A stretch of 42,836 nt of DNA, from positions 1 through 42,836 of the forward strand of contig CABYXQ010000005.1 in the NCBI GenBank assembly GCA_902522915.1, written 5' to 3'. The position numbers were made by a program, and so were the translations under genes. The notes under the pieces are model-generated. The model had not been told where the DNA came from, made no database searches, and saw only the letters and a program-made list of their open reading frames with translations. This stretch comes from an uncultured Pelagibacteraceae bacterium (GTDB lineage: Bacteria > Pseudomonadota > Alphaproteobacteria > Pelagibacterales > Pelagibacteraceae). Shown piece by piece: positions 16,566 to 27,787 of the stretch (positions are counted from its first letter, which is position 1; the number at the start of each line of letters is the position of its first letter).

Positions 16566-17711
16566 CAAATTTTTTGTTTCATTTTTAATCAATTCAACTG
16601 CAGGCTGATCATAAGGATTTAAATTTAGTGCTTGGCCAATTAAAATCGTCTCTAGCATAAAAAAACAAAATAATGCTCCTAAACTTTTTTCATCTCTTCG
16701 ATTGACTTCAAAACTTCGAAAAGGAATATTTTTTTTTATAAAAATATTTTCAGTGGCTTTTTTTTGAGCAAATGTAATCTTTCCTAAACTTTTATTTTTA
16801 AGATAATCTAAAGATGATGTTATAAAATTATTATTAAGTTTTTCAGATTTTTTCTCATTTACGTAAAAAAATGTAAAAAAATTATTTTTAAAACCGTCAA
16901 GATACAATTGCATAACACTGTGATTATCTCTAGGCATATTTGAGAGAATTGGTAAAAGACCCTTTTTTTTCTTTCCTAAACTTTCTGCAACTAACTGTTG
17001 GTACCATTTAAATAAATTTTCAGATTTTTCATCGTAATTAATTATTACTGAATTAAATTTTTTTTTTTTTTGAAAATGAAGTATTGCACCCACATTTTTA
17101 ATTAAAGCATTAAAAAATATTTTGTTTTTAATCAAGGAATTTAAATTTTTAAATTTACTAGAACGTAATCCCATTAACTCTGCTGGTAACATTCCTACTT
17201 CAGACAAAACTGAATATCTTCCTCCAATAAAATTATTGTGATGAATTATGTCAGCTTTTAATTTTTCTGCCAAAAGATAGAGATAGCTATCTTTTTTTTC
17301 TGTAATAAAAATATTATTATCTTTTTTTTTAACAAAAATATTTGTGTTAATAATGGTTTCAATAGTATTACCAGATTTAGAAATAACTAAATTTGTAAAA
17401 TTAGTTTTTTTGTCGATTTTTTTACTAGCTTGTAAATTGTCAATAAATAAAAAATTTTTTTTTATTTTATTTTTTAAAAAATCATAAATTGCATGTGCTC
17501 CTAAAGAGGATCCACCCATTCCAATAATTCTATAATTTGAAGATTTTTTATATTTATTTAATTTTTTTTTATTAAAATTAGCTTTATAGCTTTTGTCAAA
17601 AGATTTAATTACTTGATTTTTTTCTTTAATCAAAAAATTAAGTTTTTTTTTTAAAAATGAAGTTTTTGAATTTACTTTAAAGTTTGTAAAATTAATTCCA
17701 GAGGTTAACAT
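16557..17711 (-). CDS. pgi: Glucose-6-phosphate isomerase (short form)
   Basis: Interconverts glucose-6-phosphate and fructose-6-phosphate. The protein has 384 residues, far below the about 550 of E. coli-type enzymes but in line with compact bacterial forms. Family motifs remain: GMGGSSLG (64-71), SKSGNTIET (111-119), and GGRYSVLSEVGMLP (163-176). PRDNHSVMQLYLDG supplies the active-site His region, and the C terminus has NPYDQPAVELIKNE. It is extremely lysine-rich with long in-frame A/T runs, yet uninterrupted. The start abuts the DUF3035 gene stop. Assignment is secure; activity is presumed. Confidence 0.9.
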   Translation of the reverse strand: MLTSGINFTNFKVNSKTSFLKKKLNFLIKEKNQVIKSFDKSYKANFNKKKLNKYKKSSNYRIIGMGGSSLGAHAIYDFLKNKIKKNFLFIDNLQASKKIDKKTNFTNLVISKSGNTIETIINTNIFVKKKDNNIFITEKKDSYLYLLAEKLKADIIHHNNFIGGRYSVLSEVGMLPAELMGLRSSKFKNLNSLIKNKIFFNALIKNVGAILHFQKKKKFNSVIINYDEKSENLFKWYQQLVAESLGKKKKGLLPILSNMPRDNHSVMQLYLDGFKNNFFTFFYVNEKKSEKLNNNFITSSLDYLKNKSLGKITFAQKKATENIFIKKNIPFRSFEVNRRDEKSLGALFCFFMLETILIGQALNLNPYDQPAVELIKNETKNLLI

Positions 17712-18034
17712 TAATTATTTTTAATTTTATTAAGCAAAAGCTCTTCAAAAGTTGATCTGTTATTTGTTGAGTTATCTGAGTTTGAAGAGTTGTTGTCTGA
17801 CCTTGTAATTAATTTTTTTATTTCATCATTTTGATTATTCTCTAATATGCTTTCTGATTTGGGAATGGGTAGCTCATTAAAGTTTGGTGGCATTAAAAGA
17901 GGCGATTTTTTTTCAACCAAAAATTCATCGCTATTATCTTTTTTTTGCATTGAAAATCCTTCTTTAACAGTGCCACATGAGGCAAGTAAGAGAAGCATTA
18001 AATTAAATATTAAAAAAATTCTAATTTTTTTCAT
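17711..18034 (-). CDS. DUF3035-like lipoprotein
   Basis: Small lipoprotein with a signal peptide and lipobox: MKKIRIFLIFNLMLLLLASCGT, cysteine at residue 20 of this start. The mature part has the LMPPNFNELPIP segment seen in DUF3035 proteins, then a low-complexity Asn/Ser tail. I chose the ATG at 18032-18034 because it gives a normal basic N terminus; ATGs at 18040 and 18058 would add MIM or MIIIKIMI. Either way the start lies inside lspA, the gene for the peptidase that would process it. Function is unknown. The assignment rests on lipobox, motif and the usual lspA neighbourhood. Confidence 0.75.
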   Translation of the reverse strand: MKKIRIFLIFNLMLLLLASCGTVKEGFSMQKKDNSDEFLVEKKSPLLMPPNFNELPIPKSESILENNQNDEIKKLITRSDNNSSNSDNSTNNRSTFEELLLNKIKNN

Positions 18035-18527
18035 AATCATTATTTTTATTATTATCAATTAATTCTAATAAAATCATAAAAATTACACCTAGAGTTATAA
18101 AAATGTCAGCTATATTAAACACAAACCAATGAAATTCTCCAATGTGAAAATCTATAAAATCTGGAACTGCTCTATAAAAAACTCGATCATATAAATTTCC
18201 AATTGCTCCTCCTAAAATCATGATTAATGAATATTTTTTAAGACCAATATTTTTAATTACCATTATAAGTATAACTAGAATTACAACTGAAATAATAATT
18301 GTTAAAAAATTATATAAATCTGTTCTATTAAAAGAAAGTAAACCAAATGCAATTCCTTCATTCCACATCAAATCAATATTTAAGTATTTTGATTGAAATA
18401 TTGCTGAGTCGTAATATTTTTTGTTTAAATAAATTATGTAAATCTTCGATATCCTATCAAAGCTGAAAATTAAAAATATAAATATTAAGTTAATAACAAA
18501 ATTTTTTTTAAAATAATTTAAAATCAT
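18021..18527 (-). CDS. lspA: Lipoprotein signal peptidase
   Basis: Inner-membrane aspartyl peptidase that removes signal peptides from prolipoproteins. The 168 residues have four helices and the two catalytic aspartates: Asp123 (VPDFIDF) and Asp141 (FNIADIFI). GGAIGNLYDR (106-115) and NEGIAFG (56-62) are the other conserved boxes. Its ATG overlaps the ileS stop by four bases, the ileS-lspA coupling common in proteobacteria. Confidence 0.95.
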   Translation of the reverse strand: MILNYFKKNFVINLIFIFLIFSFDRISKIYIIYLNKKYYDSAIFQSKYLNIDLMWNEGIAFGLLSFNRTDLYNFLTIIISVVILVILIMVIKNIGLKKYSLIMILGGAIGNLYDRVFYRAVPDFIDFHIGEFHWFVFNIADIFITLGVIFMILLELIDNNKNNDYEKN

Positions 18528-26211: not shown

Positions 26212-26580
26212 TTATCTTCTCTTTTTATTATATTTTTTAAAAGTAAAATTTTTAGGTCTATTGTTTCTATTTTTAAATTTTTTCTTACGTTTAAAACTAA
26301 AATTTTTTCTTTCTTCATCAATTGATAGATTTTCTATAGGTTTTTTTCCAAAATATTTAGGATTATTTGTATATCCATTTGGTCTTGTCTTTTTTTTACT
26401 AAAAAGGTTTTTCTTTTTTTTGAAAAGAAAGTCCTTTTTTTCATCAGTTTTTACAGGTTTGTCTAACTTTCTATTTCTAAAAGATTTTCTTTGATCCCTT
26501 AAATTTGATTTACCTTTAAAATCAAAGTTTTTTTTCTCATTATTCCTTAATGATCTATCTAATCTTCTTTTTCCAAATAA
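26212..26580 (-). pseudogene. Frame-shifted basic C-terminal tail of the DEAD-box helicase
   Basis: Directly downstream of the helicase stop there is an open stretch of 122 codons plus stop with no ATG, GTG or TTG start in its frame. The frame begins just after an in-frame stop at about 26605 and passes through the A-runs. The product starts LFGKRRLDRSL and is rich in Lys, Arg, Asn and Phe (for example FKNRNNRPKNFTFKKYNKKRR, shown here in part), as in RhlE-type helicase tails. Removing one A from the A6 run (26591-26596), or adding two, joins it to the helicase as a 524-residue protein. It is either a real split, a slippage product, or a sequence error. Confidence 0.7.
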
Positions 26581-26587
26581 TTTTTTT

Positions 26588-27787
26588 TTATTTTTTAAAA
26601 CTTAATTTTTTTTCTTTTCTAATTTTACTTTTTTTATTGTTTATTCTTTTTCCTCTTCTTTTGTCTTTTATTTTCTTTCTCAAACTATTTGGTACAGATT
26701 TAAAATTGGGATCAATTAATTTATTTATTGAATTCCACATTGATCTATCTTCTGGTGTTAGAAAGGTTAGAGCCGATCCCTCTGACCCTGCTCTAGCAGT
26801 CCTTCCAATTCTGTGAATATAATCTTCTGGTACTTGTGGTAAGTCGTAATTTATAACATGTTGAATTAAAGGAATATCGAGACCTCTAGCGGCAACATCT
26901 GTTGCTATCAAGATTCTTTTTAGTCCTTTTCTAAAAGAATTTATAACTCGATCCCTTTTACTTTGACGTAAATCACCGTGAATTGCATCTACTGAGTGAG
27001 CTTCTTCTTTAAGTCTTTTAACCATTTTATCAGCACTTCTTTTAGTCTTAACAAAAACTAAGATAGACCCTTTTCTAGATAAAAATTGATCTACTAATTC
27101 ATCATATTTATTTTCTTTGAAAACCTGAAGTGTTTCCTGTTTAATTTTAGCAATAGGAATAGAAGTTGCTCCAGTAGAAATTCTTTTAGGATTTTTTAAA
27201 TATTTATCTGAAATTCTTAAAATATTTTCTGGCAAAGTTGCGGAAAATAATAATGTTTGATGATCTTTAGGAATAAATTTTAAAACTAACTCAATTTGTG
27301 GAGTAAATCCCATATCTAACATTCTGTCTGTTTCATCTAGAACAAGATATTTTGTTTTTGACAAATCCAAGCTTCTTCTTTTTAAATGATCATTAATTCT
27401 GCCAGGAGTGCCCACAATAATTCTTGATCTGTTACCTAATTGTCGAAGTTGTTTTTGCATGGCTTCTCCACCTATTAGAAGAGCAGTTTTAATGTTAATT
27501 TTATCACTAATGATACTTTTTATTGCAGACATTACTTGAGAAGCCAATTCTCTTGTTGGACACATAACTAGGGCATATGCGTTTTTATCTAATATTAATT
27601 TATTTATCAGTGGAACACAAAAAGCTAGTGTTTTTCCTGTTCCAGTTTGAGCGGTACCTAAAATATCTTTGCCCTCTAAAGCAATAGGTATTGCCATACC
27701 TTGTATTGGAGTAGGCTTTATAAAATTCATTTTTGATAATGAACTTTTTAATGATTCTTCTATTTTAATTAATTTAAAATTTTCCAT
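26588..27787 (-). CDS. DEAD-box ATP-dependent RNA helicase (RhlE-like)
   Basis: RNA helicase that unwinds RNA in ribosome assembly or mRNA turnover. The 399 residues hold both RecA domains: Q-motif FIKPTPIQ, motif I AQTGTGKT, PTRELA (Ia), GTPGR (Ib), a DETD form of motif II (VLDETDRMLDMGF), motif III SAT, and in domain 2 ATDVAARGLDIP and HRIGRTARAGSEG (VI). Motif II reads Asp-Glu-Thr-Asp rather than Asp-Glu-Ala-Asp. The frame stops after KKLSFKK in a lysine-rich linker at A-runs, and a basic tail continues in the +1 frame. RhlE-group proteins commonly have such tails, so this stop is probably not the ancestral end. Confidence 0.9.
   Translation of the reverse strand: MENFKLIKIEESLKSSLSKMNFIKPTPIQGMAIPIALEGKDILGTAQTGTGKTLAFCVPLINKLILDKNAYALVMCPTRELASQVMSAIKSIISDKINIKTALLIGGEAMQKQLRQLGNRSRIIVGTPGRINDHLKRRSLDLSKTKYLVLDETDRMLDMGFTPQIELVLKFIPKDHQTLLFSATLPENILRISDKYLKNPKRISTGATSIPIAKIKQETLQVFKENKYDELVDQFLSRKGSILVFVKTKRSADKMVKRLKEEAHSVDAIHGDLRQSKRDRVINSFRKGLKRILIATDVAARGLDIPLIQHVINYDLPQVPEDYIHRIGRTARAGSEGSALTFLTPEDRSMWNSINKLIDPNFKSVPNSLRKKIKDKRRGKRINNKKSKIRKEKKLSFKK

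Follow-up and report, generated by a model that had tools for sequence, protein, structure and literature searches.

Near the end of a helicase gene in a Pelagibacteraceae genome, the reading frame breaks at a run of A's, and an open, basic tail continues in the +1 frame. Is this break a site at which two forms of the helicase are made, or is it an ordinary indel? The gene lies in the window, by which we mean the whole stretch of DNA analyzed here (42,836 nucleotides; contig CABYXQ010000005.1 of assembly GCA_902522915.1, hereafter G000). Sequence error, recent mutation, and regulated slippage had been offered as readings in the preliminary description of this DNA; the first two are retained here, whereas regulated slippage found no support. 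We conclude with high confidence that the break is a private one-base indel, left by a technical slip or a recent mutation, and that no regulated frameshift is involved.

The helicase ORF (399 aa; 26588..27787, minus strand) was defined by its translation and by Pfam; both helicase domains are unbroken and the basic tail is shortened. The DEAD domain (PF00270) matched residues 26-190 (9.2e-52; 175.6 bits against a cut-off of 26), and Helicase_C (PF00271) matched residues 228-334 (2.9e-34; 118.1 bits against a cut-off of 23.5). Together, these two domains place the protein among the superfamily 2 DEAD-box helicases. Its motif II reads DETD and not D-E-A-D, which puts it outside the D-E-A-D members proper, and because this motif is a D-E-x-D variant, we call the protein DEAD-box-like. 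The same DETD motif was seen in the relatives compared at this position, L010, L012-L015, L017, and L021. The gene had been labeled RhlE-type, a label that should be dropped because the RhlE model (NCBIfam NF007882) reached 291 bits against a cut-off of 743, and the best-scoring model was CshA (NF053631), itself below its cut-off (409 against 646 bits). None of the 25 NCBIfam models listed, of the 57 that matched the helicase ORF, reached its curated cut-off. This is an ordinary SAR11-group gene for a DEAD-box-like helicase, and its basic C-terminal tail is A-rich and evolves fast.

This helicase is patchily distributed in the family: matches at 1e-30 or better were found in 78 of 397 sampled genomes, and in 37 of 140 genomes that were at least 90% complete. 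The length of the basic tail differs widely among relatives, and tandem repeats of ~20-30 residues occur in the tails of L011 and L018. A search of the window's own genome for a second copy returned one full match and otherwise short, weak ones, and thus revealed no second copy. None of the viral contigs scanned encoded a relative of the helicase.

The helicase frame ends at KKLSFKK, with its stop codon at 26590-26588 (minus strand). This end falls within the frame-change site, TTTT-A6-T-A9 on the coding strand (26580..26600, minus strand), as had been described and as we confirmed on that strand; the nearest relative has A5 in place of A6. Before the frame-0 stop, only A6 and the neighboring TTTT can restore the frame, as A9 comes after the TAA. 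The +1 frame (26212..26601, minus strand) consists of 129 sense codons and a stop, with ~124 of the sense codons past the frame-0 stop. It is open and free of ATG, GTG, and TTG, in agreement with the preliminary description, which had however given its length as 122 codons. Its product is rich in Lys, Arg, and Asn (Lys+Arg 40%), which bears out the basic tail noticed earlier, and is a homologue of the C-terminal tail that relatives encode in frame. A/T runs of at least 6 bases are dense in this part of the gene (12 in the 487 nt of linker and tail against 1 in the 1089 nt of the core). Positions 26212-27787 span 1576 nt, that is, 3 × 525 + 1, and therefore the loss of one base gives 524 residues. 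The joined length of 524 residues proposed earlier thus follows from the arithmetic, and it is also the length of the intact frame in the relative described below.

This relative, AG-390-P19 (L038, CACEKT010000010.1), is a single-cell genome and was the nearest one found. It carries an intact 524-codon frame, and its protein is 96% identical to the helicase ORF over the first 398 residues. The whole gene, the tail, and the downstream sequence are shared with the window. Base changes aside, exactly one indel separates L038 from the window over ~1.69 kb, with A5 in the former and A6 in the latter; an end gap that arises from slice boundaries is discounted. The difference is therefore that L038, with A5, has one 524-codon frame, whereas the window, with A6, does not. 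Compared with the in-frame tail of L038, the +1 frame differs in 6 of 123 codons, 5 of them residue-changing, and the tail shows 7 nucleotide differences over 369 nt and no stop. We rejected a chance open frame because the L038 tail is near-identical in frame and because shuffling the bases of the tail 5000 times never left 122 codons open. The +1 frame is the normal C-terminal tail of the helicase gene, which a single extra A puts out of frame in this one assembly.

The nucleotide changes between the window and L038 were also sorted by their effect. There were 17 synonymous and 10 nonsynonymous changes in the core, 3 and 7 in the linker upstream of the break, and 1 and 6 in the tail. The 1:6 ratio of the tail was considered as a sign of decay or relaxed selection and rejected, as the same excess is present in the linker and in pairs of intact relatives. 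Among the 25 close intact pairs listed, many of which have members in common, nonsynonymous changes in the tail outnumbered synonymous ones in 20, the reverse held in 3, and 2 had no changes. The tail is loosely constrained anyway, and its changes therefore tell nothing of the age of the break.

The wider set of relatives was surveyed at 121 loci besides the window, among the relatives listed (the best 80 of 153 in one search and at most 30 places in another), with L022-L037, other helicases that matched weakly, excluded. At 96 loci, L038 included, a single intact frame ended in a basic tail; 1 locus was broken, 12 were duplicates (first 300 residues identical to another locus), and 12 ran off a contig end. 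A locus was counted as intact if it had a loosely defined end-motif and a tail of 55 codons or more; L018, L019, and L068 have unusual ends. Thus, a plain single frame was seen in 96 of the 97 distinct listed relatives whose sequence runs as far as a stop codon. Alignment with relatives had been proposed as a check, with ordinary single frames to count against two helicase forms, and as regards the frames this is what was found. The one broken relative (AG-422-J21; L012, identical to L076) carries a different indel, a 5-base excess located further upstream in the A-rich linker. Broken tails were therefore seen in 2 of the 98 genes compared, namely those of the window and AG-422-J21. The best relatives bear the titles Pelagibacteraceae, Pelagibacterales, or Candidatus Pelagibacter, and one is titled only Alphaproteobacteria.

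The 11 aligned relatives do not conserve the A6-T-A9 tract. L038 reads A5-T-A9, the other ten lack the A9 run, and 9 of the 11 have interruptions or changes in the tract beyond the one A, so that a slippery site is not conserved. None of the compared relatives has the extra base, which is thus private to the window, and the tail is otherwise undecayed. Because the extra A is absent in the relatives, the break is most likely a technical slip or a fresh mutation and not a two-protein switch.

Other frame breaks in the same assembly bear on the choice between these two sources. G000 (58 contigs, 1.01 Mb, 73% completeness) was compared with the AG-390-P19 genome (G451) over 563,623 aligned bp at 94.9% mean identity. 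In six rows of the comparison, the G451 ORF was intact and its G000 counterpart absent (five one-base gaps and one five-base gap). On translation, at least four breaks private to G000 were upheld, all of them +1 changes in A/T runs. These are the helicase break at C5:26596, in an A run, and the breaks at C12:19184 (L166, G000_C12), C26:4018 (L220, G000_C26), and C14:12007 (L168, G000_C14), the last of which was found from net gaps per gene; the G451 copies of all three are intact. From their motifs, we take these three genes to resemble an acyl-CoA synthetase, a Rieske-type oxygenase, and a transporter substrate-binding protein, respectively. In at least two of them, the break lies well within the coding part. 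The helicase break is thus private, located at an A/T run, and accompanied by similar breaks in its assembly, as is characteristic of a homopolymer indel.

Other candidates were set aside. In this comparison, translation places C17:5930 and C18:6107 ahead of the gene start. The overlapping ORFs at 17711-18527, considered as a second break in the window, read as separate genes in translation. The five-base gap at C1:50708 concerns a 113-codon ORF. In the reverse direction, G451 appeared broken in 15 rows (14 places), two of them at alignment ends. Seven of these rows fall in G451_C8 at ~16.8-33.6 kb (L203, L252), with a one-base excess in A/T runs and intact G000 ORFs; this crowded stretch may be an error-rich region.

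The contig ends indicate how G000 was probably obtained. Contig G000_C19 (L173, L272) ends in an inverted duplication of 3069 bp at 99.97% identity, and the one that ends G451_C20 (L215) measures 5032 bp at 100%. Long inverted duplications at contig ends are known to mark multiple displacement amplification, and both are what amplification chimeras would be expected to show. G451 is titled a single-cell genome, and the terminal inverted duplication of G000 makes it probable that G000 is one as well. AG-390-P19 is presumably a product of a single-cell workflow for marine plankton that has been benchmarked. In the available part of that benchmark, 3.0 indels per 100 kb were reported (PMC11247762), a value that is the average of three cultures and not a rate for G000. 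It would permit ~17 indels in the aligned length; the 4 coding breaks are fewer, with non-genic indels assigned to neither genome. The accessible portion of PMC5519541 contained no rate usable for comparison. On these grounds, a technical source (amplification, library, sequencing, or assembly) appears likelier than a real mutation, although, with 2 of 98 tails broken, it may also be that real frameshifts are tolerated there.

A real recent frameshift in the sampled cell or strain is the less probable but still serious alternative. It would yield a 399-residue product that retains both helicase domains and lacks most of the tail. The unbroken domains are consistent with such a product, tail length and amino acids vary among intact relatives, and the tail of AG-422-J21 is broken too. 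However, past the indel the tail has not decayed, and a real mutation would therefore need to be young. Moreover, the three further +1 breaks in A/T runs of the assembly fit a technical source at least equally well. It is also conceivable, though improbable, that the tail is a contingency region, in which dense A-runs would occasionally shift the frame and give rise to a reversible tail-less variant in some cells, such as those of the window and AG-422-J21.

We consider programmed or selected transcriptional slippage, which would make a short and a long helicase, very improbable. The frame does change at A-runs, and the second frame continues exactly. In Blochmannia and Buchnera, slippage has been described to rescue genes frameshifted in A/T tracts (PMC3017870, in excerpt), and deletions are not rare as such, as transcription deletions outnumbered insertions 921 to 72 overall in E. 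coli (PMC5574713, in excerpt). These E. coli deletions, however, were seldom located in runs (3, under 1%). In Buchnera, according to the same excerpt, homopolymeric tracts held 151 of 157 insertions against 16 of 57 deletions; insertions thus dominate at runs, whereas the window would need a deletion. Slippage by bacterial RNA polymerase is reported, in the available text of PMC6260861, to require a run of at least 7 T's and even more A's, for which A6 is too short, and of the tract only this A6 and TTTT precede the stop. A slippery run conserved in orthologues, and a need for slippage in them, would be expected of a programmed site; neither was found, as the tract varies and nearly all relatives that reach a stop do so in a plain frame. 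The suggestion of a regulated site producing two helicase forms is therefore not upheld. A rare full-length product may still be made, and nothing points to regulation. Ribosomal frameshifting (+1 or -2) at TTT AAA AAA TAA has the slightest chance of all, as the A-rich codon series would suit it and a -2 slip would presumably retain Lys pairing, but the site is unconserved and the intact relatives have no need of it.

The private one-base indel thus accounts for a locus that resembles a split gene. In A+T-rich uncultured genomes, single-base indels can be expected to produce A-run "split genes" whose second frame is open and homologous, which calls for caution, and one close relative can settle such a case. 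Should the variant be real, it would suggest that the helicase tail is dispensable in SAR11.

Besides the intact orthologue in AG-390-P19, two known systems can be compared with this locus. The slippage-rescued genes of Blochmannia and Buchnera (PMC3017870, in excerpt) resemble it in that a single base was gained or lost within an A-run, in a genome rich in A+T. In contrast to the private A6 of the window, their tracts are long (at least 9 bases; one of 11 A's), and some of the frameshifts are conserved between species. Indels of single-cell assemblies form the second system, with the difference that the window's assembly is single-cell by inference. Such indels are scattered, and their rate in the accessible part of PMC11247762 allows for the one found here.
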